Part shown: positions 2,753-23,641 of the stretch, one piece after another | Layout: each line of letters begins with the position of its first letter | Position numbering within the stretch: the first letter of the stretch is position 1 | Origin: a virus | Length of the DNA stretch: 26,421 bases | Strand: one strand, 5' to 3' | Virus record (IMG/VR): IMGVR_UViG_3300044615_000030 | Location: 1 to 26,421 of that record | Made by a program: the position numbers and the translations under genes | The notes under the pieces: model-generated | Databases searched by the model: none | Told to the model about the DNA's origin: nothing | The model's input: only the letters and a program-made list of their open reading frames with translations

Positions 2753-4231
2753 ATGCTGATGCCACTCAAGATACCAGCAGGCGTTTACCGTAACGGCACT
2801 GAATACCAATCAATGGGTCGGTGGTTCGGCGCTAACTTGGTTCGGTGGTTTGAGAACACTCTCAGGCCAGTTGGAGGCTGGCGCAAGAGGGCTAATGGAC
2901 AGATGTCAGGCACCTGCCGAGGCATTATCAATTGGCGTGACAACAGCTCAACCCGGTGGATTGTGGCTGGCACCAACACCAAACTGTATGTGATGAACCA
3001 AGCTGGGACGCTGAAGGAAATAACACCAACGATATTCACACCTGGTGCAGCAGATGCATCATTGCTAGTTGGCTATGGCTACGGAAACTATGGTGCATTT
3101 GCGTATGGTGTGGCTAGGCCAGACACTGGCGCAATCATCAACGCTGCCACCTGGTCAATGGACACTTGGGGTGAGTATTGGGTCGGATGCTGCAACAGCG
3201 ATGGTCAATTGCTGGAGTGGCAGCTAGGATTCACAACGCCAACGAAGGCAGTGGCAATTGTCAATGCACCCACCAGTTGCGCGGCGGTGATGACCACCTC
3301 TGAGCGTTTCATGTTCGCCTTGGGTGCCAGCGGTAACCCTCGGCTTGTGGCATGGTGTGATCAGGAGGACAACACCACATGGTCACCAGCCGCCAATAAC
3401 CAAGCAGGCAGCTTTGAGCTGACAACTGTAGGTTCAATCTTGGCGGGTAAGCGGGTGCGAGGCGTCAACCTGATATTCACTGACGTTGATGTCCACACCA
3501 GCAGCTACATTGGTCAGCCGTTCGTGTTCAGCTTTGAGAAGGCTGGCTCTGGTTGCGGCTTGATTGGACCCCAGGCTGTAGCGGCTATTGATACAGCAGC
3601 CATTTGGATGTCACGTTCAGGTTTCTGGATTTACGACGGTTACGTCAAGCCACTACCTTCTGACGTTGGCGACTATGTGTTCAGCAATATCAACTTGGAG
3701 CAGGCCAGCAAGGTTTACGCTGTCCACAACTCCAAGTTTGGTGAGATATGGTGGTTTTACACCAGCAGCGCCAGCATCGAGAATGACTCCTACGTCATCT
3801 ACAACTACCGTGAAAACCACTGGTCAATAGGCACCTTGGCGCGTCTGGCTGGGGTTGACAAGGGCGTCTTCAACAACCCGTTGATGGTCAGTGCTGACGG
3901 TTACATCTACGAGCATGAGGTGGGCTTTGCCTACGACTCACAGACAATTTACGCTGAGTCAGGTCCGGTAGAGATTGGCAATGGCGAGCAGATCATGCAG
4001 GTTCGCAAGGTGATACCTGACGAGTCCAACCTTGGGGATGTCAACATCAGCTTCAGCAGCCGTTTCTATCCAACCGACACTGAGACAACCTACGGTCCAT
4101 TCACCAGCGCCAACCCAACCGACGCACGTTTCAGTGGGCGCCAGGTCAAGATGAAGGTAACAGCCGATACTTTGAGTGATTGGCGGGTGGGGGTGATGCG
4201 CCTAGATGCGGTGCCAGCCGGGAAACGCTGA
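2753..4231 (+). CDS. Putative tail protein (beta-propeller-like, tail nozzle/stabilization candidate), 492 aa
   Basis: The protein begins MLMPLKIPAGVYRNGTEYQS; a second in-frame ATG at 2759 is nearly as good. It is rich in aromatic residues, Gly and alternating hydrophobics, with recurring blade-like strands (WIVAGTNTKLYVMN, GFWIYDGYVKPL, DGYIYEHEVGF), and ends VMRLDAVPAGKR. This strand-rich layout, the length near P22 gp10 (about 470 aa), and the presence of a P22-type portal in the same genome suggest a tail accessory or nozzle protein of a podovirus, but I see no decisive motif. The next gene starts at the last base of its stop codon. The virion role is likely; the exact part is uncertain. 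Confidence 0.6.
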   Translation: MLMPLKIPAGVYRNGTEYQSMGRWFGANLVRWFENTLRPVGGWRKRANGQMSGTCRGIINWRDNSSTRWIVAGTNTKLYVMNQAGTLKEITPTIFTPGAADASLLVGYGYGNYGAFAYGVARPDTGAIINAATWSMDTWGEYWVGCCNSDGQLLEWQLGFTTPTKAVAIVNAPTSCAAVMTTSERFMFALGASGNPRLVAWCDQEDNTTWSPAANNQAGSFELTTVGSILAGKRVRGVNLIFTDVDVHTSSYIGQPFVFSFEKAGSGCGLIGPQAVAAIDTAAIWMSRSGFWIYDGYVKPLPSDVGDYVFSNINLEQASKVYAVHNSKFGEIWWFYTSSASIENDSYVIYNYRENHWSIGTLARLAGVDKGVFNNPLMVSADGYIYEHEVGFAYDSQTIYAESGPVEIGNGEQIMQVRKVIPDESNLGDVNISFSSRFYPTDTETTYGPFTSANPTDARFSGRQVKMKVTADTLSDWRVGVMRLDAVPAGKR

Positions 4232-13497: not shown

Positions 13498-13739
13498 GGA
13501 CGCTTCCTGGGTAGTGGCGCCCAATACTGCCAGAACTGCGTCTCGCCCACCTTGTAGATGTAGTGCCCCATTGTGGCAACACCAGACCGTCCTAGTAACA
13601 GCACCTTGACACCTTGCGGTGTCTGATCGTCAATGGGCAACCAAAAGAAGTCATCCGCTACTGCTGCCGTGAAGGTGCTGTCCAGCCTGAACTTCTGCTC
13701 ATGCTTGAAACGCTCAAACTCTTCGTCTTCAGGGGCCAT
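13494..13739 (-). CDS. DUF551-like protein, 81 aa
   Basis: The N-terminus is charged (MAPEDEEFERFKHEQKF). The rest follows the DUF551 pattern: W-L-P-I-D-D-x-T-P-x-G-V-x-V-L-L-L, a short hairpin (GVATMGHYIYKVGETQFW), then Y-W-A-P-L-P near the end. DUF551 proteins are common small accessory proteins of phages, of unknown function. The start overlaps the upstream gene by 11 bp, the only junction of this operon that is not an exact ATGA. Confidence 0.65.
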   Translation of the reverse strand: MAPEDEEFERFKHEQKFRLDSTFTAAVADDFFWLPIDDQTPQGVKVLLLGRSGVATMGHYIYKVGETQFWQYWAPLPRKRP

Positions 13740-15680: not shown

Positions 15681-15887
15681 ATGGAAAACAAATTGACAGC
15701 AACGCAACGCCAAGAGCTTGCAGAACGAGTTGGCCTCAACGAACAGTGGCTCTACCAATGCCTTAGCGGTAGGCGGGACATGAGTCCTGCTGAAGCCATC
15801 CGAGTGGAGGCTGCGTCTGGTGGGACAGTCACCCGGCAGATGCTGTGCCAAGGGACATGGTCCAAGATTTGGCCTGAGCTGGCATGA
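15681..15887 (+). CDS. YdaS/Cro-like transcriptional regulator, 68 aa
   Basis: The protein is one helix-turn-helix domain: TATQRQELAERVGLNEQWLY, then QCLSGRRDMSPAEAIRVEAA, then SGGTVTRQMLCQGTWSKIWPEL. The ending GG-x-VTR-x(3)-[DCQ]-x(3)-W-x(2)-IWPEL is the hallmark of YdaS/Cro-type regulators of lambdoid and other phages. It should bind operators in the divergent region just upstream and repress or switch early transcription. I see no good Shine-Dalgarno before ATG 15681, so translation may be weak, and a small inverted repeat (AGTCT-GCT-AGACT, 15661-15673) lies in the leader. The resolvase gene begins in its stop codon. Confidence 0.85.
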   Translation: MENKLTATQRQELAERVGLNEQWLYQCLSGRRDMSPAEAIRVEAASGGTVTRQMLCQGTWSKIWPELA

Positions 15888-16420
15888 GCAATCTACAATC
15901 CCCCCAGGCTATGCAGTTGCCTACTTTGGGGGCAGGCCATGCGCCTGTCCCTTCCTTTTCTCGGGTCATTGGCATTGACCCTGGCGCATCAGGCGCTATT
16001 GCACTGCTCCTTAACGGTGTGCTGGTGTCAGTACACGATATGCCAACAGTCACCGTGGAGCGCAACAAGGCACAGAAGCGGCAAGTCTGTCCTGCTGGCC
16101 TTGCACTTTTGATGCAGCAGCTCGCACCTCACCGGGCAACAGTCGAGAAGGTAGGCGCCATGCCAGGTCAGGGTGTCTCTTCAATGTTCAGCTTTGGGCG
16201 TTCAGTTGGCATCATCGAGGGAGTGCTTGCCGCCAAGCAGATACCTGTGACGTTTGTCACACCACAGAGTTGGCAGAAGTCTTCAGGTGCCGCTAAGGGT
16301 AAGGACGGATCACGCCAGAGGGTCATGGAGCTGTTTCCTCGGGAGGCGCATCTCTTTGCCAGGGTCAAGGACGATGGACGCGCTGACGCAGTTCTGATTG
16401 GTCTATGGGGTGGTGTATGA
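15884..16420 (+). CDS. RuvC-like Holliday junction resolvase
   Basis: The 178-aa protein has the RNase H-fold resolvase motifs: VIGIDPGASGAIA with Asp32, TVEKVGAMPGQGVSSMFSFG with Glu88, and a C-terminal KDDGRADAVLIG with Asp164 and Asp168. Together these give the four-carboxylate metal site. The first 27 residues are extra, and a later start is possible. It would resolve branched DNA from replication and recombination before packaging. It overlaps the regulator stop (ATGA) and the next start (16417-16420). The C-terminus ends soon after the last acidic motif, a little shorter than many relatives. Confidence 0.88.
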   Translation: MSNLQSPQAMQLPTLGAGHAPVPSFSRVIGIDPGASGAIALLLNGVLVSVHDMPTVTVERNKAQKRQVCPAGLALLMQQLAPHRATVEKVGAMPGQGVSSMFSFGRSVGIIEGVLAAKQIPVTFVTPQSWQKSSGAAKGKDGSRQRVMELFPREAHLFARVKDDGRADAVLIGLWGGV

Positions 16421-16641
16421 CTCTACAAGAAGATGAACGTAAGACCCTGAAGGCGCACATCCTCTGGCTGGGGACTGAGCTGGAAAAGTCTCGCCTTCAG
16501 TGCCGAGCCAAGACCGAATTGCTGAAGCGGATGCTGGACCCGGAGGACCTGGGACACGCAGTCTCTAACGAGGTTCGCGCCAGCATCTACCAAATACTGA
16601 TTGAAGATTCACACAACGAAAGAGACGCATGGAACAGATAA
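16417..16641 (+). CDS. Small coiled-coil hypothetical protein, 74 aa
   Basis: I use the ATG at 16417, which overlaps the resolvase stop (ATGA), over the in-frame ATG at 16405. The product is helical and charged (MTLQEDERKTLKAHILWLGT, then ELEKSRLQCRAKTELLKRML), with a C-terminal helix (NEVRASIYQILIEDSHNERD). The nuclease gene starts 13 bp before its end. No family is recognised; its place between resolvase and nuclease suggests a role in DNA metabolism. Confidence 0.65.
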   Translation: MTLQEDERKTLKAHILWLGTELEKSRLQCRAKTELLKRMLDPEDLGHAVSNEVRASIYQILIEDSHNERDAWNR

Positions 16642-17702
16642 AACAGACACTGCTCAGGCCCAGTGCTGCGGGACGATGGATTGCTTGCCCCGCAAGCGTT
16701 CAGCTTTCAGCCAAGATGCCAATGGGAGAGTCAGGTGCTGCCGCGCAGCGTGGGACTGCAATTCACTCTCTGTCGGAGTCATGCTTTATGACCTCCAGCT
16801 TGCCAGAGGAGTGGCTGGGCGTGGAGGTGGAGGGTGTCAGGATGGACGAGGAGGCCATCACCTACGCTCGCAAGCACTTGGACTACATTGAGGGAGAGGA
16901 GAAGCGTTTGGGTAACGTATTCGTTGAGCAGTACGTCACTGCCCTAGACACGCACAACGTCCGAGTTGCGGGTACTGCTGATGTCCTGGGCTGGTCAGAT
17001 GACACTGGTGAATTCGTCATTGGTGACCTAAAGACAGGGCGGGGATACGTTGACGCTGATTCAGATCAGATGCGTATCTATGCACTCGGCGGTATGCGTC
17101 TGGCAAAGAAGACATTCAAGACGGTGACAATGACGATCGTCCAGCCAGTGCATGGCGTGAACCGCAGTCACACCATGACAGTCTCTGAGTTGCTCAAGTG
17201 GGAGCGCAACGTCCTGATTCCTGCGGCACAGGCTGCAATGGCACCAGACCCCAAGGTAGTGCCAAGTGAATCAGCCTGCCAGTGGTGTCCAGCCAGGGCC
17301 ATTTGTCCAGCGCACATTGAAACCTTTACCGAGTTTGCTGAATCAGCATTGCCGCAGGCACTTAGCAATGAGCAGTTGGCGTCCTACCTGAACCAAGTCT
17401 CCAAGGTTGAGGCGTTCATCAAGGCATTGGAGACTTATGCTGTTAAGTGCATCAAGGATGGTGCGGCGGTCCCAGGCTGGCAGATGGGGTCTAAGAAGTC
17501 AACGAGGAAGTGGACTGATGAGACTGAGGCTGTTGGTGCCTTGGTGCTGGCTGGACTCACTCAAGACCAAATCTATCCAAGAGAAATCATATCGCCAGCA
17601 GTTGCTGAGAAGCTGCTGAACGATAAAACGGTCACGGAAACCTTGACAACCAAGGTGTCCAGTGGACTCACCCTATGCCGAGCATTCGGCATTGGTGAGT
17701 AG
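16629..17702 (+). CDS. DUF2800 / RecB-like PD-(D/E)XK nuclease with probable Fe-S cluster
   Basis: In this 357-aa protein the nuclease core is RGTAIH (His46), GTADVLGW (Asp118), then FVIGDLKTGRG (Asp133, Lys135), and QMRIYALG (Gln147). Four cysteines have the layout of iron-sulphur RecB-family nucleases (AddB, Cas4): Cys20 before the core and CQWCPARAIC (Cys217, Cys220, Cys226) after it. The C-terminal 120 residues are the extra DUF2800 part. Likely activity is 5'-3' or 3'-5' exonuclease on phage DNA for recombination, paired with the ssDNA-binding protein just downstream; polarity cannot be read. A 44-bp gap with a tandem CTTAACT repeat separates them. Confidence 0.85.
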   Translation: MEQIKQTLLRPSAAGRWIACPASVQLSAKMPMGESGAAAQRGTAIHSLSESCFMTSSLPEEWLGVEVEGVRMDEEAITYARKHLDYIEGEEKRLGNVFVEQYVTALDTHNVRVAGTADVLGWSDDTGEFVIGDLKTGRGYVDADSDQMRIYALGGMRLAKKTFKTVTMTIVQPVHGVNRSHTMTVSELLKWERNVLIPAAQAAMAPDPKVVPSESACQWCPARAICPAHIETFTEFAESALPQALSNEQLASYLNQVSKVEAFIKALETYAVKCIKDGAAVPGWQMGSKKSTRKWTDETEAVGALVLAGLTQDQIYPREIISPAVAEKLLNDKTVTETLTTKVSSGLTLCRAFGIGE

Positions 17703-17746: not shown

Positions 17747-18334
17747 ATGCTAAATCTTTCAAGCAACGGCGGTGGGTCTTACATTCGGTTTATGGCGCAG
17801 ACACGCCAATGGGAAAACTCTAGCAAGGAGTCAATCACATTGCCGCCAATGGTGATGGACATGGACAGTGTTCGCACTGGCTGGCTCCTGCTTGGTATCG
17901 GTCAGCGGGATTGGGTGGAGGACGAGTCCATTGGCAAGAAGGGTAAGCAGCCTTCTGCTGACCACAAGCGTGGCTTTAGCGTAAAGCTGTTCTCGAAACC
18001 TACAGGTGTCGTTGAGTGGTGTGCGTCTGGTGTCGGTGTCACCAAGGGGTTTGAGGCCATCTACAACGCCTGTGATGCACAGGCTGACCACAACCCAGGC
18101 AAGGTGCCAGTCATCAATTACGAGGGTGCAACTGCTCTCAAGATTGGCGCGGGTAACACGGCAATTCCCAATTTCAAACTGAAGAACTGGGTTAACCGTC
18201 CTGCTGCCTTGGATGCTGATGGTGAGGCTGTCTATGAGGAGGAAGCACCAGCACCAGCACCAGTACGTCAGGCAGCAAGGCCAGCTCCAAAGCCAGCGCC
18301 TGTGGTTGAGGATGACGAGGAAATGTTCAACTAA
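17747..18334 (+). CDS. Phage single-stranded DNA-binding protein (gp2.5-like role)
   Basis: The 195-aa protein has an OB-fold-like body with strand-rich sequence (GGGSYIRFMAQTRQW; DMDSVRTGWLLLGIGQRDWV; RGFSVKLFSKPTGVVEW). A Pro/Ala linker and an acidic tail, VVEDDEEMFN, follow. The acidic tail with a near-terminal phenylalanine is typical of phage and bacterial ssDNA-binding proteins, where it contacts polymerase, primase or nuclease. Position between a recombination nuclease and a primase-helicase supports the call. A strong terminator follows immediately, so it can be expressed at high level separately from the primase. The body does not show a canonical bacterial SSB signature. Confidence 0.78.
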   Translation: MLNLSSNGGGSYIRFMAQTRQWENSSKESITLPPMVMDMDSVRTGWLLLGIGQRDWVEDESIGKKGKQPSADHKRGFSVKLFSKPTGVVEWCASGVGVTKGFEAIYNACDAQADHNPGKVPVINYEGATALKIGAGNTAIPNFKLKNWVNRPAALDADGEAVYEEEAPAPAPVRQAARPAPKPAPVVEDDEEMFN

Positions 18335-18383: not shown

Positions 18384-18560
18384 ATGAAACAAGAACAATG
18401 GAATTTGCTCCTCATTTCACTTGCGCGTCGGGTGTACGAGCTGGAGCAGAGAATAAAAACACTGGAAACTGCACATGGATGCAAAACTGATTGCGGCGGC
18501 ATTAGGACACTCAAGGCCAGCAGCAAACGGACATTGGCTGGCGTCCTGCCCAGTCCTTGA
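18384..18560 (+). CDS. Possible small coiled-coil protein overlapping the primase start, 58 aa
   Basis: ATG 18384 opens MKQEQWNLLLISLARRVYEL, then EQRIKTLETAHGCKTDCGGI, so the part before the primase start looks like a real charged coiled coil. The last 28 codons lie inside the primase gene in another frame and look unconvincing (basic, Ser/Pro-rich). No clear Shine-Dalgarno precedes it, and it starts only seven bases after the terminator. It may be a leader peptide coupled to the primase or a chance ORF. Confidence 0.35.
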   Translation: MKQEQWNLLLISLARRVYELEQRIKTLETAHGCKTDCGGIRTLKASSKRTLAGVLPSP

Positions 18561-20553
18561 CCACGGACAGGGGAATGGGGATAAGAACCCGTCTCTGTCA
18601 GTCAGGGATGAAGACGGGAAGCTGCTGCTGAAGTGTCACGGTGGATGTTCGCAGCACGACGTTTGGGCAGCGGTTAGGGACATGGGGTTGCTGCCTGAGA
18701 CATCAGAGTGGGTCGAGCCATTGGCTGGCATTGGCAAACGTCTCAATGGACACCATCCACCAACACCAAGGTTACCAGTACCTACTACACCTACTACACC
18801 AGTTCAGGTAGAACTAGAGCAGGAGTGGCTGTACGAGGATGAGTCTGGCGTCACCCAATTTGTGAAGCAGAGGTTTCGCACTTCAGACGCCAAGGGTAAG
18901 ACGTACAAGTTGCTGAGAGTTATGTCTGACGGAACCCGGCAGGCGTCAATGTCGGGTGCCAGGATCATCCCTTATCGTCTCGCTGATGTCTTGGCTGCTG
19001 GGTTTCACAGCAAGCCAATATTCATTTGTGAGGGTGAGAAGGCGGCTGATGCTTTGGCATCACTTGGCGTCTTTACTTGTACGTCTCACACTGGTGCCGG
19101 GAGTTGGCCTGCTGCCAACAGCGCCTGGTTCAAGGACTTGGCGGTGGTGCTGGTGCCAGACTTTGATGCACCAGGCTATAGATATGCATCCTTGGTAGCG
19201 GCTGCACTTCTTCCTATTGCGAAGTCAGTCAGACTCCTGGCGTTACCCGTGGGGCATACGGAGGATGCGTTTGAGTGGGTTGCGACTGGTGGTGATAAGT
19301 CTGGCCTGATGGCATTGTGCAAGGGGTTGGAGCCTATCTCTGATGCCTCAGAGATTGTTTATCTCCCACCACCAGCAGAAGAAGAAGACTCTGAGCCAGA
19401 CGCCGAGGAACTGGAGCCTGATTCTGAAGCACCAGAGCCAATCGAAAGTAAGATTCTCATTGAGGGTTGGGACACGATTCAGGATGAGCCTGTTGAGTGG
19501 TTGATTCAGGACGTTCTGCCTCGAAAGGGATTCAGCGCACTGTTTGGACCGCCAGGTTCATTCAAGTCTTTCGTGGCCTTGGACATTGCTCATTCGGTGG
19601 CTACTGGTAAGGCTTGGATGGGTAAGGAGGTGTCTGTACCTGGTGCCGTGCTTTACATCTGTGGTGAGGGGCATGGAGGCATTGGGGCAAGGATTAAGGC
19701 ACTGCGAGTGCATCACAAGACTGAGCCTGGCGCACCAGTCTATGTCATCAGGCACCAACTTAACTTACGCAGCTCAAAGGAAGACGTACAGCAGCTCCAG
19801 CTTGCCATCACCAACCTGGTGGCAAGGACTCAGGTCAGGTTTGAGCTGGTGCAGGTGGACACCTTGGCTAGAGCGTTTGGCGGTGGTAATGAGAATGATT
19901 CGTCGGACATGGGGTCGTTCATTGCCTCGCTATCAAAGATTCAGCGGCTTTTGGACTGTGCATTGCAGATCGTCCATCACGTTGGTAAGGATGTCACCAA
20001 GGGTTTGCGTGGACATAGTTCCTTGCTTGGTGCGTTAGATACTGAGTTGGAACTACAACGTATTAATGATGGGTTACAAGATAATAATATTGCTGGCGCT
20101 GGTAATATAACTATTACTAAGCAGAAGGATGGAAGTGACGGTGCTAAGTATGGATTTCGTATGGTCAAGGTTGACTTAGATAATACTAATTTAGGGTTTG
20201 AATCTACTCAGAGTTTGGCGGTGGAGGCTACGGATGTGGCTGTAAATGTGCAGCCAGTTGGCTTAAAAAGGACGGGTCAGGGTAAGCACCAGGGCAAGGC
20301 AATGGCAGCTTTTGTGGAGTCAATCAGGGAAACTGATCGCATTCAGTCCACCAAGTTTGGTCAAAAGAAGGTGACTTTGGTGTCTCTTTGGCGTGAAAAA
20401 GTGTGGCGTGGGTTGGGTAAAACGGGTGAGGTTAAGGGTCGAGATATCGAATTTAAGGCGGCTTGGAGGGCTGCAACCAACCTTGAGGGTGTGACGTTGG
20501 ACGGTGATTTTGCGTTCTTCACCACCAAGTTTGGCGAGAAAGAGCACTTTTAG
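18475..20553 (+). CDS. DNA primase-helicase fusion (CHC2-type Zn finger, TOPRIM, RecA-like ATPase)
   Basis: The 692-aa protein has a zinc finger at residues 25-58 (Cys25, His30, Cys54, Cys58 in CPVLDHG...KCHGGC), and a TOPRIM domain near 180-245 (FICEGEKAADALASLG, then VVLVPDFDAPGYRYA). After an acidic linker comes a RepA/AAA_25-type ATPase: Walker A GPPGSFKSF near residue 357, LYICGEGHGGIGAR, Walker B-like VQVDTLARAFGGGNEND near 458, and IVHHVGKDVTKG. It would prime and unwind phage DNA at the fork. No phage polymerase is seen here, so it probably works with the host replisome. The start follows GGAA. The 3' part uses more A+T-rich codons (20041-20240). Confidence 0.88.
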   Translation: MDAKLIAAALGHSRPAANGHWLASCPVLDHGQGNGDKNPSLSVRDEDGKLLLKCHGGCSQHDVWAAVRDMGLLPETSEWVEPLAGIGKRLNGHHPPTPRLPVPTTPTTPVQVELEQEWLYEDESGVTQFVKQRFRTSDAKGKTYKLLRVMSDGTRQASMSGARIIPYRLADVLAAGFHSKPIFICEGEKAADALASLGVFTCTSHTGAGSWPAANSAWFKDLAVVLVPDFDAPGYRYASLVAAALLPIAKSVRLLALPVGHTEDAFEWVATGGDKSGLMALCKGLEPISDASEIVYLPPPAEEEDSEPDAEELEPDSEAPEPIESKILIEGWDTIQDEPVEWLIQDVLPRKGFSALFGPPGSFKSFVALDIAHSVATGKAWMGKEVSVPGAVLYICGEGHGGIGARIKALRVHHKTEPGAPVYVIRHQLNLRSSKEDVQQLQLAITNLVARTQVRFELVQVDTLARAFGGGNENDSSDMGSFIASLSKIQRLLDCALQIVHHVGKDVTKGLRGHSSLLGALDTELELQRINDGLQDNNIAGAGNITITKQKDGSDGAKYGFRMVKVDLDNTNLGFESTQSLAVEATDVAVNVQPVGLKRTGQGKHQGKAMAAFVESIRETDRIQSTKFGQKKVTLVSLWREKVWRGLGKTGEVKGRDIEFKAAWRAATNLEGVTLDGDFAFFTTKFGEKEHF

Positions 20554-20556
20554 GGT

Positions 20557-20707
20557 GTTCACAAATGGGAACAAATGGGGAACAAATGGTAGACGATTTA
20601 TGAACAGGAAAGTGTTCACAAATGGGGGCAAGGGTATAACACTTGCCCATTTGTGAACAGTTGGGTGGGTGTTTTGAGGTGGGAACAAATGGAAGGGGAA
20701 CAAATGG
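20557..20707. repeat. Iteron-like cluster, seven copies of ACAAATGG
   Basis: The 8-mer ACAAATGG begins at 20561, 20571, 20582, 20618, 20685 and 20700, with an inverted copy (CCATTTGT) at 20647-20654. Most lie in a longer unit, either GGGAACAAATGG or GTTCACAAATGGG. The first three are 10 and 11 bp apart, one helical turn, as expected for cooperative protein binding on one DNA face. It fills the 150-bp gap between primase-helicase and the next gene, and its last copy contains that gene's start codon. Confidence 0.85.
20613..20659. repeat. 14-bp inverted repeat, large hairpin within the iteron cluster
   Basis: TGTTCACAAATGGG (20613-20626) is perfectly complementary to CCCATTTGTGAACA (20646-20659). 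After a GG bulge the stem continues with CAAG/CTTG (20629-20632 and 20642-20645), leaving a 9-nt A/T-rich loop (GGTATAACA). It could be a cruciform, an mRNA leader structure or a single-strand replication start. There is no following T-run, so it is not a normal terminator. Confidence 0.8.
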
Positions 20708-21354
20708 CAAAAGGTAAAACATTGGTGGTGGAGGCTACGCGCTATCCGTTGGATGAGTTCACGGTGAAGGCTGAGTCTTTGGTGGCTAGGTTGGAGCGGG
20801 TGAAGAATGACCATGAGGCTAGGTGGGGAATTAGGCGTATTGAGATGCTGGTGGATTCCAGCTTGAGGTTGAGGTTGGAGCAGCAGATGGAGAGGGTCTT
20901 CAATGCACAGCAGGAGAGGGACATCGAGAAGATGGAGAAGGCGGTCAACGGGATGGTTAAGGGGTTTGGTGTTCTTGACCAGTGGGCATTAGATAATAAT
21001 ATTGAGCAGCCGAGTATTAATGCAGTGGAGTGGGTTATGCAAGACAAGAGTGTGATGGTGGTGGTCCAGACTCACGCTGATGCAATATATTATCAACAGT
21101 TTCGGCCTGATGTTGGTAATAGGCATATATGGTCAATGGAGGAGTTAGAGTTATTATTGCAGTCAGATATTATTAAGGATATTATTAGGGCAAAGGCGTT
21201 ACTCCCAGGCACAAGGATGGTACAGGTGACGCCAGGTGGTAAGACAGGGTTTGATGACTGGCCTGATGCTGACGTTGACCTGAGCGGGGGAATCAAGGAG
21301 CCTTTGTTCAACTTTGAACACGCAAGGATGATGGGTGGCGTTAGGAGCCGTTAA
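20704..21354 (+). CDS. Hypothetical protein downstream of iterons, 216 aa
   Basis: The chosen ATG 20704 (MAKGKTLVVEATRYPLDEFT) follows AGGGGAACAA; the longer in-frame ORF from 20653 translates the repeats and is unlikely. Residues 20-100 are a charged, helical, coiled-coil-like region (ESLVARLERVKNDHEARWGI; LRLEQQMERVFNAQQERDIE). The C-terminal part has WSMEELELLLQSDIIKDIIR and a basic end. No TM and no recognised family. Its start codon lies in the last iteron and the small terminase follows, so it could bind these repeats or belong to DNA packaging; both are inference. Confidence 0.7.
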   Translation: MAKGKTLVVEATRYPLDEFTVKAESLVARLERVKNDHEARWGIRRIEMLVDSSLRLRLEQQMERVFNAQQERDIEKMEKAVNGMVKGFGVLDQWALDNNIEQPSINAVEWVMQDKSVMVVVQTHADAIYYQQFRPDVGNRHIWSMEELELLLQSDIIKDIIRAKALLPGTRMVQVTPGGKTGFDDWPDADVDLSGGIKEPLFNFEHARMMGGVRSR

Positions 21355-21436
21355 AATCGACTCAGGTGGCATCAAAGGTACAGAGTGGTACTTGGGGTGC
21401 TTGGTTCAACGATAGACGATTGTGGAGCGTTTAAAG

Positions 21437-21856
21437 ATGTATGTGAAGCGGAAGGCAGACATCGCCATGCTGGAGTCAATCGACAAGGAAATCGTCTTTT
21501 CGATGATCGAGGTGGGCAAGTCAATTGCTAATGTCTGCATTGAATTGGGCATTAGCAAGCGTGCGCTTGAGACTTGGATTGAAGATAACGGTTATGAGCC
21601 GGATATACTACGCGCACGCGTGCGTGCTGCCGATATGATGGCTTGCGAGACTGTGGAGATAGCCGACACCATCTCCGACGATAACCCGAGCAAGCCGTTG
21701 CACCGCATCAGGACGCGACAGTGGCTGGCCGAAAGGTGGGACGCCAAGACGTACGGCGCGAAACAGGCAGCGGTGACGGTCAACATAGGCAACCTGCGCC
21801 TGGACGCCTTGCGCCAGCTTGAGGTGGTTGAGGACTTATCCACAGGCGAAACGTAG
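21437..21856 (+). CDS. Terminase small subunit-like protein, 139 aa
   Basis: ATG 21437 has GGAG nine bases upstream; an in-frame GTG at 21422 is the alternative (144 aa). The N-terminal half carries a helix-turn-helix (SIANVCIELGISKRALETWI), then GYEPDILRARVRAADMMACE, and the typical small-terminase segment PLHRIRTRQWLAERWDAKTY. The C-terminus ends in LRQLEVVEDLSTGET. Small terminases of this Sf6/P22-like type bind the pac site and start packaging. One perfect DnaA box lies inside its last codons (21836-21844). TerL follows after an unusual 375-bp gap. Confidence 0.85.
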   Translation: MYVKRKADIAMLESIDKEIVFSMIEVGKSIANVCIELGISKRALETWIEDNGYEPDILRARVRAADMMACETVEIADTISDDNPSKPLHRIRTRQWLAERWDAKTYGAKQAAVTVNIGNLRLDALRQLEVVEDLSTGET

Positions 21857-21923
21857 ACTTTCCAGCTCAATCCTGTGGATAACTACAGGATATGGCTAAA
21901 GTGTCTGTATAGCCTGTGGATAA
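21836..21923. other. Cluster of three perfect DnaA boxes, candidate replication origin
   Basis: TTATCCACA occurs at 21836-21844 (+), and its complement TGTGGATAA at 21874-21882 and 21915-21923. All three share the wider core CCTGTGGATAA, so they behave as an 11-bp iteron. A/T-rich sequence follows (about 21924-21980, with ATAATGGATATCGTATTAAG). Perfect consensus boxes in one opposing pair plus a direct copy within 88 bp are what host DnaA would bind. Proof of origin activity is lacking. Confidence 0.75.
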
Positions 21924-22231
21924 GCAATTTGCTTGTTAACATAATGGATATCGTATTAAGCATTTGGTGCATAACTGCTGCTTCCGTATGTTTTACGCAA
22001 CATGGTGAGTCCAGACGCTGGCGGCTCCATCCTGCCGCGCCAGCCGGGTGACCCCCCCCCGTCAGCGCCAACGGCGGGGGCGGCAGTTGCAGCACCAAAC
22101 GCCTACCGAAAAAAATAAAACATAACGTAAAAAATAAAACGTAACGCCAAGCGTTACACGCCAAGCACCCCCCGCCACCCACCACTCGCAACACGCCTTC
22201 CAAAAAAAATAAAAAATGCATAATATGAAAT
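21857..22231. other. 375-bp intergenic region between small and large terminase
   Basis: This is the longest stretch without a convincing gene. From left to right it holds two of the three DnaA boxes, an A/T-rich part, a GC-rich block (about 22011-22095) with a GCTGGCG/CGCCAGC inverted repeat and a run of nine C at 22052-22060, a tandem A-tract repeat, a 7-bp hairpin, and a last A-rich leader running into the TerL start. It may combine origin, pac-like and promoter functions. Confidence 0.6.
22110..22157. repeat. Tandem 19-bp A-tract repeat plus hairpin
   Basis: AAAAAATAAAAC(A/G)TAACG occurs at 22110-22127 and 22129-22146 with a 19-bp period; a third, partial A-tract lies at about 22203-22217. 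The inverted repeat GTAACGC-CAA-GCGTTAC (22141-22157) overlaps the second copy. Phased A-tracts of this kind bend DNA, and the hairpin could be a protein site. Confidence 0.7.
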
Positions 22232-23641
22232 ATGACCACTGACGCTAATCCGTTTCTTGCCTTTGCCAAGCTGTATAAAAACAACCCTGTGCTGTTTGTA
22301 AGGGAAGTCCTTGGCGTTAAGCCTGATCCGTGGCAAGAGGAATTCTTGGGGCATATCGCAGCCAACAACAGGCGCATCAGCGTCAGGTCCGGGCATGGCG
22401 TAGGCAAGAGTACGGCAGCGTCATGGGCAATCATTTGGTATCTGCTGCTGCGCTTCCCTGTCAAGATTGTGGTTACCGCACCCACCAGCAGCCAACTGTA
22501 TGACGCCTTGTTCGCCGAGTTGAAACGCTGGGTGAAGGCGCTACCACCGACACTGCAGGAGCAGCTGGAGGTGAAGCAGGACCGGATCGAAGTTAAGGAG
22601 GCACCGACAGAGGCGTTCATCAGCGCCAGGACATCACGCGCAGAGCAGCCCGAGGCGCTACAGGGCGTCCACTCCGACAATGTGATGCTGGTGGCTGACG
22701 AGGCTAGCGGTATACCAGAGCAGGTATTCGAGGCGGCAGCAGGCAGTATGTCGGGCCACAAGGCCGTGACGCTACTCTTAGGTAACCCGGTACGCAGCAG
22801 CGGATTCTTCTTTGATACCCACAACCGCCTCAAGGATGACTGGGTGACGATGAAGGTGAGCTGCGCCGACAGCCCGAGGGTGTCAGACGCCTATATGGAC
22901 GAGATGAAGTCCAGGTACGGTGAGGAGAGCAATGCCTACCGCATCCGGGTGCTGGGTGACTTTCCGAGGAGCGATGACGATACGGTGATACCGATGGAGT
23001 TATTGGAGGCTGCAACCAACAGGGACGTAGCAGTCAGCCCAATAGCCAAGGTTGTGTGGGGGCTGGACGTTGCGCGGTTCGGGTCAGACAGGAGCGCACT
23101 GTGCAAGCGGCAGGGGAATGCAGTTACCGAGCCAGTGAAAACGTGGAAGAACCTGGACCTGATGCAACTGACTGGCGCGGTGATGGCTGAGTACCAAGCA
23201 TTGCCACCGGACCAGCGTCCGCATGAGATTATGGTGGATAGTATTGGCTTGGGTGCTGGTGTGGTGGACAGGCTGCGTGAGCTGAAGTTGCCAGCCATTG
23301 GCATTAACGTGGCAGAATCCCCGGCATTGGGGAGTACGTACAGGAATTTGAAGGCTGAACTGTGGCACAAGGCCAAGGCATGGCTGGAGAAGCGGGACTG
23401 CGTTATTCCCAAGGATGAGTCCTTGATTGCTGAACTGGCGACAGTGAGATACTTTTTTACCAGCGGGGGTAAAATTCAGATTGAGGGTAAGGACGAGATT
23501 CGTAAGCGTGGCTTGGCGTCACCCGACAAGGCAGACGCCTTTTGCCTTACATTTGCTTCCGATGCCGGGACTGCGATGTTCGGCTCGCAGATGCATAAGT
23601 ATGGTTCGAGTTTGAAACGTAACCTGACGAGGGCAGCATGA
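22232..23641 (+). CDS. terL: Terminase large subunit
   Basis: The 469-aa protein has the packaging ATPase motifs: Walker A SGHGVGKST (residues 53-61), Walker B VMLVADEAS (151-159, Asp156 and Glu157), and coupling motif LLLGNP (181-186). The RNase H-like nuclease follows with GLDVARFGSD (Asp279), IMVDSIGLGAGVVDRL near 332-347, and SPDKADAFCL near 430. It powers DNA into the procapsid and cuts the concatemer. The small subunit is upstream and the portal downstream, the normal order. No Shine-Dalgarno is visible; the leader is A/T-rich (CATAATATGAAAT) up to ATG 22232, which is unusual for this genome. The stop overlaps the next ATG. Confidence 0.95.
   Translation: MTTDANPFLAFAKLYKNNPVLFVREVLGVKPDPWQEEFLGHIAANNRRISVRSGHGVGKSTAASWAIIWYLLLRFPVKIVVTAPTSSQLYDALFAELKRWVKALPPTLQEQLEVKQDRIEVKEAPTEAFISARTSRAEQPEALQGVHSDNVMLVADEASGIPEQVFEAAAGSMSGHKAVTLLLGNPVRSSGFFFDTHNRLKDDWVTMKVSCADSPRVSDAYMDEMKSRYGEESNAYRIRVLGDFPRSDDDTVIPMELLEAATNRDVAVSPIAKVVWGLDVARFGSDRSALCKRQGNAVTEPVKTWKNLDLMQLTGAVMAEYQALPPDQRPHEIMVDSIGLGAGVVDRLRELKLPAIGINVAESPALGSTYRNLKAELWHKAKAWLEKRDCVIPKDESLIAELATVRYFFTSGGKIQIEGKDEIRKRGLASPDKADAFCLTFASDAGTAMFGSQMHKYGSSLKRNLTRAA

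Follow-up and report, generated by a model that had tools for sequence, protein, structure and literature searches.

The interval between the terminase genes terS and terL of a freshwater tailed-phage genome fragment carries a compact module in which three perfect DnaA boxes are interleaved with a predicted XerC/XerD (dif-like) recombination site, and comparison with relatives makes it probable that this composite is a DnaA-dependent phage origin joined to a resolution or circularisation site operated by the host. The window, by which we mean the whole stretch of 26,421 bp that was analysed (IMG/VR record IMGVR_UViG_3300044615_000030), is a fragment of a virus genome: the portal gene runs off its right end and relatives are about 35–37 kb long. 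The original prediction had seen the boxes only, and the composite DnaA/Xer module is richer than it had stated.

An exact-match search of the record returned exactly three perfect matches to TTATCCACA and none elsewhere: box 1 at 21836–21844 (plus strand), box 2 at 21874–21882 (minus strand) and box 3 at 21915–21923 (minus strand), a cluster that spans 88 bp at the terS/terL junction. The longer core that the boxes had been said to share is indeed present, with the 11-mer TTATCCACAGG common to all three, and one box does lie inside the coding end of terS: box 1 falls within the last codons of this gene (GAC TTA TCC ACA GGC GAA ACG TAG), which spans 21422–21856 (plus strand) and was confirmed by a match to the Sf6-like terminase small subunit (PF20901, E = 2.8e-13; phrog_1482). 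Order-2 Markov copies of the window contain a mean of 0.175 perfect boxes, and three within 100 bp occurred in 0 of 400 such copies; the cluster thus stands well above background, as would be expected of a DnaA origin. In relatives, which were compared for all three boxes, the position of box 1 is conserved and box 2 is kept at −61/−62 from the Xer core, whilst a possible weak box (TTATGCACC, 21966–21974, minus strand, two mismatches) is conserved only in the window's own lineage. The A/T-rich DNA described as following the boxes is present for about 40–80 bp (A+T 75% at 21920–21959 and 55% at 21960–21999), but not beyond, where A+T lies at 17–33% (22000–22079). Its 40 bp of highest A+T content overlap a predicted recombination site of XerC/XerD type, which makes up most of the A/T-rich stretch and had been missed by the original prediction.

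This predicted site occupies 28 bp at 21934–21961 (minus strand) and reads, from 21961 down to 21934, GCTTAATACGA-TATCCA-TTATGTTAACA, with the XerC arm at 21951–21961, the centre at 21945–21950 and the XerD arm at 21934–21944. The dif of Rhodoferax ferrireducens has been published as ACTTGATACGA-TGTATA-TTATGTTAAGT (PMC2731167, Table 1); the arms of the window site are identical to its arms at 18 of 22 positions, and the central hexamer is different. A generic proteobacterial dif matrix proved too weak for Rhodoferax-type XerC arms and did not rank the window site first; it was replaced by the published R. ferrireducens arms, and the scan scored the 22 arm positions only. Across 300 Markov copies of the window the arm score never exceeded 17, with 18 reached in none of the 300. 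The top arm match is the module site in 18 of 18 module-bearing records (16–19 matches), and the best score in two module-less records was only 14–15. The anatomy follows the rules given for plasmid xrs (PMC11724359), namely 11-bp arms around a 6–8-bp centre with the inner arm parts most conserved: the window centre has 6 bp and the inner bases of the XerD arm are near invariant. The XerD arm is also better conserved than the XerC arm and the centre variable between replicons, with top-base frequencies in 15 dereplicated sites of TerL family A, to which the window belongs, of 0.90 for the XerD arm, 0.72 for the XerC arm and near 0.5 for the flanks; if family A is taken by itself, the centre shows rather little variation (0.89). 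A search of 369 genomes of one class with the host-dif pattern AYACGATRTNNNTTATGTTAA gave 0 matches. Read from the dif type only, the arms point to Comamonadaceae-like hosts.

The module is followed by terL (22232–23641, plus strand; phrog_2, E = 4.7e-46), and 1.3 kb upstream of the module lies a gene for a primase-helicase with a primase-like N terminus and an AAA_25 RepA-type helicase (18475–20553, plus strand; PF13481, E = 1.7e-39; phrog_6088, phrog_906), which travels with the module as judged by co-occurrence. Further upstream, all on the plus strand, are a RuvC-like Holliday junction resolvase (15884–16420; phrog_1770, E = 7.2e-37), a DUF2800/PD-(D/E)XK exonuclease of the replication-recombination block (16629–17702; PF10926, E = 5.9e-63) and a 195-aa protein (17747–18334) that tblastn places in the same block in all primase-helicase-bearing genomes of families A and B. 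The latter gave no family match in Pfam and PHROG searches and our guess would be a ssDNA-binding protein. That no polymerase is visible, as had been remarked, holds for the window's genes in the same two kinds of search, and family-A polymerase was found in 0 of the 17 module-bearing records tested, DNA_pol_A being the one polymerase family searched systematically. Between the module and terL lies a G+C-rich inverted repeat with a C-tract and a G-tract (22032–22086), the RNA fold of which was no better than that of shuffles (z = −0.03). Relatives without the module (L012, L028) retain a similar element followed by GCAGCACCAAACAC, so that the element may serve packaging or termination separately from the module. 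The same interval holds three A-rich direct repeats (22099–22217).

A TerL search of IMG/VR yielded 80 relatives, which are non-independent samples. Perfect boxes in their terL loci occur only 200–460 bp upstream of terL, other lineages carry the near-consensus boxes TTATGCACA and TTGTCCACA at the same positions, and the XerD-arm sequence TTAACATAAT, or its inverse, adjoins the boxes in every boxed relative. Ten module-bearing genomes have 29 perfect boxes inside their modules versus 2 outside in 350 kb. Boxes that were not conserved in relatives would have spoken against the origin idea, which on this test survived. The module is found with TerL families A, B (record G011) and C (record G010), the last only about 30% identical to family A, and the gene order primase-helicase, module, terL is the same in all three, although in family C the module, again between terS and terL, is inverted. 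It is likewise inverted relative to terL in L281 of family B, in which eleven DnaA-like boxes in one orientation and with a period of about 11 bp (about 2612–2765) form an array that looks like oriC, the last box starting 22 bp from an Xer core with the centre CGCCCG. In L054 the Xer core is inverted (ACTGCATACGA-CGGGCA-TTATGTTAAGT) and agrees with the R. ferrireducens dif at 20 of 22 arm positions. An IHF consensus (WATCAANNNNTTR) was present in 20 of 46 dereplicated modules, on the same strand as the Xer core and 59–61 or 69–70 bp 3' of its start, offsets that differ by one helical turn, with a background of about 0.01 per such stretch; there is none in the window's own lineage.

Some features of these loci are recorded here as observations. 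In the modules of G001, G010, G011 and G013 the XerC arm is followed by a conserved CTGTAAG element, which in several lineages pairs with CTTAC(AG) on the far side of the IHF consensus. Amongst the terL-relative contigs that begin at most 6 kb upstream of the gene, left ends are concentrated close to it: 11 lie within 400 bp of terL, several times the number in other bins of this size; these could be physical genome ends or assembly breaks at a variable gap. G016 and G017, two IMG/VR records of more than 50 kb, have the appearance of chimeras between related phages, with long repeats inside each: one of 9.7 kb at 99.9% in G016 and several at 84–94% in G017.

When viral contigs were scanned for the arms, 154 sites in distinct contexts were recovered, and 137 of them have two or more DnaA boxes close by. 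Across the boxed phages the arms are conserved and the central hexamer takes 15 forms, among which the host centre TATACA never occurs, and the five sites that have this centre are all without boxes. Three of these (L244, L245 and L246) are filamentous-phage contigs with Zot and/or Rep_trans genes and a dif identical to that of R. ferrireducens, which is useful for host assignment. Integrase was found in 0 of 19 records and serine resolvase in 0 of 17: with the arms kept, the centre free and no phage recombinase, the sites look as would be expected of an Xer site that serves recombination between phage genomes.

The co-occurrence of the module with replication genes was scored in 69 terL loci that include 500 bp or more of upstream sequence, of which 12 were too short to show either gene and one (L065) was partial. 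Boxes and XerD arm are present in 47 of 47 loci with a homologue of the primase-helicase, whereas both are absent in 9 of 9 loci with an alternative replication block, defined as a RepB_primase/DUF5906 protein and/or DNA_pol_A; DNA_pol_A was found in G006 and G017, both complete examples with this block. The module-less phages retain terS and terL, their TerL is up to 97% identical to that of the window, and on the TerL tree they are nested among the carriers, with five changes of which at least three are forced by well-supported branches. This split and nesting together indicate that replication genes and module have been exchanged jointly more than once, the association expected of a DnaA origin and, in our comparison, the strongest point in favour of an origin and likewise against a role in packaging. 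In a further phage (L269), the Xer site (13666–13689) follows a lambda-O-like initiator gene at a distance of 21 bp and boxes are absent, which suggests that boxes do the initiator's job and that the Xer site does something else. Boxes and Xer site are, by these comparisons, separable elements, some phages carrying the Xer site alone. Other tailed phages of a RecE/RecT group (L279, L290, L302 and L304) have the same Xer arms without DnaA boxes, with the centres CGCCTG, CGCCCG or GATCCG. The module is absent in MW202711, phiM5 and CRP-811, and phiM5 encodes its own polymerase. A plasmid search with the primase returned distant helicase matches only, and the partition ATPase PF13614 was found in 0 of 17 records.

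A host-DnaA origin is the best reading of the boxes for several reasons: relatives conserve them, the rest of the genomes has almost none, they are exchanged with replication genes and absent with a different replication block, an IHF consensus often accompanies them, and one relative has eleven. This part of the original prediction is well supported by comparison, short of demonstration, but cumulative GC skew, which had been proposed as a check on it and was run, is silent: there is no switch or extreme at the module, and a strand-composition switch is not required of phage origins. Locally, GC skew is very high (0.33–0.46) at 20001–21500 and negative (−0.12) at 22001–22500, a pattern repeated in relatives. 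Host DnaA would bind the clustered boxes, IHF would in many relatives bend the DNA, the adjoining A/T-rich segment would open, and the phage primase-helicase would be loaded, upon which host Pol III could copy the genome. Host XerC and XerD would act on the embedded dif-like site, presumably with a second copy of this phage's genome as the partner because the centre differs from that of the chromosomal dif. The outcome would be either closure of a terminally redundant linear genome to a circle or resolution of multimers, as by Cre/loxP of P1. The loxP site of P1 can lie in both of its terminal repeats, and by analogy headful packaging from a nearby pac site would put the Xer site into both repeats of such a genome; the position of the module next to terS may therefore matter. 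Resolution to monomers would oppose the packaging of concatemers unless it is timed or the site is used for circularisation only. The coupling of replication and packaging through the position of the module, which had also been proposed, is speculation. Overall, the module suggests that this phage, in which no DNA polymerase was recognised, relies at one spot on two machines of its host, DnaA and XerC/XerD. Against the composite stands that the window's lineage has only three strong boxes, a short A/T-rich segment and no IHF consensus.

The same elements could be arranged around recombination instead, with DnaA and IHF as architectural accessory proteins only and the true origin elsewhere; the boxes would then set the topology or timing of recombination, like ArgR/ArcA and PepA at plasmid cer and psi. 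The fixed spacings of the flanking boxes from the Xer core, the helical phasing of the IHF consensus to this core and the dependence of plasmid xrs on about 200 bp of accessory sequence occupied by DNA-binding proteins (PMC11724359) would all fit. However, known accessory sequences adjoin the XerC arm whereas most boxes here are on the XerD side, the Xer site persists without boxes in phages that have an O-like initiator or RecE/RecT, and the array of L281 looks like an origin: we regard this explanation as unlikely. Nor is DnaA known to serve as an accessory factor in Xer recombination. Dif-like arms in a phage with no integrase gene also recall temperate phages of the IMEX type such as VGJphi, for which the site would be an attachment site used for integration at the chromosomal dif and the boxes incidental or regulatory; filamentous phages with Zot/Rep genes are found at the same host dif, and lineages with the centre TGGACA share all three XerC-side centre bases with the Rhodoferax dif, as VGJphi-type integration needs. 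The centre of the window (TATCCA) nevertheless shares only one of the three with TGTATA, although this Rhodoferax dif may not be that of the host, and centres vary freely between lineages. Integration at the host dif is unsupported, with no closely related integrated copy among 84,980 bacterial species genomes, and an attachment site seems very unlikely to us.

Location between terS and terL would equally suit elements that guide the terminase (pac/cos) or a late promoter before terL regulated by DnaA, and a 9-of-12 promoter-like match at 21917–21945 overlaps box 3 and the XerD arm. This match is near chance (0.4 expected), promoter and terminator readings being not above chance altogether, and a role in packaging or transcription sits poorly with close relatives that have lost the module and still possess both terminase genes, as well as with the inversions of the module in family C and L281 and of the Xer core in L054; we give it little credence. 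A DnaA titration site that draws host DnaA from oriC is the least probable of the alternatives and close to negligible: a high-affinity box cluster with IHF does resemble datA (PMC5835720), but titration leaves the exchange with the primase-helicase and the absence with the alternative replication block unexplained.

If the module is an origin joined to an Xer site, it offers a compact and testable origin candidate amongst environmental tailed phages, of which most origins are unknown, and comes with a built-in comparative control in the relatives that lost it when their replication block was swapped. It also brings a host-type Xer site with a centre unmatched to the chromosome into tailed phages, a theme known mostly from plasmids and filamentous phages, and could be used as a marker for such phages and their origins in metagenomes. 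We tentatively propose that several unrelated lineages of polymerase-less tailed phages may share an exchangeable replicon cassette, with DnaA origin and host-type XerCD site as one nucleoprotein unit. This cassette would move with the primase-helicase, could lie in both orientations and would allow host DnaA and XerCD to coordinate replication initiation with circularisation or monomerisation beside the packaging genes. Literature searches of partial coverage returned no report of a composite of DnaA boxes and an Xer/dif site in tailed phages.

Of the known systems, the oriR of phage P1 has DnaA boxes, and this tailed phage resembles the window in combining a DnaA-box origin, in the window a putative one, with a site-specific recombination site. 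In P1, recombination at the site keeps the circular form monomeric (PMC2409434). Unlike the window, P1 encodes the initiator RepA and the recombinase Cre, with oriR and loxP as separate loci; the window yielded neither a phage initiator with iterons nor a recombinase, and its boxes and Xer site are interleaved in a stretch of about 130 bp. The origin of plasmid pSC101 has a DnaA box and an IHF site and depends on host DnaA and IHF for replication. At the plasmid sites psi and cer, host XerCD resolves multimers and the centre sequence is free to vary (PMC11724359). The module is thus like pSC101 (psi) and ColE1 cer in its putative use of host DnaA/IHF for replication and of host XerCD, and in its variable centre; it differs in belonging to a virus rather than a plasmid, in that no accessory sequence of ArgR/ArcA type was identified and in that the boxes abut the Xer core. 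With the chromosomal dif of R. ferrireducens it shares the 11-6-11 architecture and arms identical at 18–20 of 22 positions, but its centre differs and varies by lineage, and it lies beside DnaA boxes and not at the replication terminus. The filamentous IMEX phages CTXphi, VGJphi and TLCphi likewise have a dif-like site and no recombinase gene; the window, by contrast, is from a double-stranded tailed phage, for which no integrated copies were found and whose centre is not matched to the host dif. The related phage MW202879 (ctjtQ328) has a TerL 68% identical to that of the window and, like the window, a site-specific recombination function in the terS–terL interval; unlike the window it encodes its own serine resolvase (PF00239) and is without a dif-like site. 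The resolvase gene lies at 966–1634 of MW202879.1 (L243), between terS and terL, and this genome also contains a pair of perfect DnaA boxes, at 3059 and 3179 and thus separated by 120 bp, that lie upstream of repA-like gene ends. This resolvase is an independent hint that site-specific recombination is wanted in the interval between the terminase genes.
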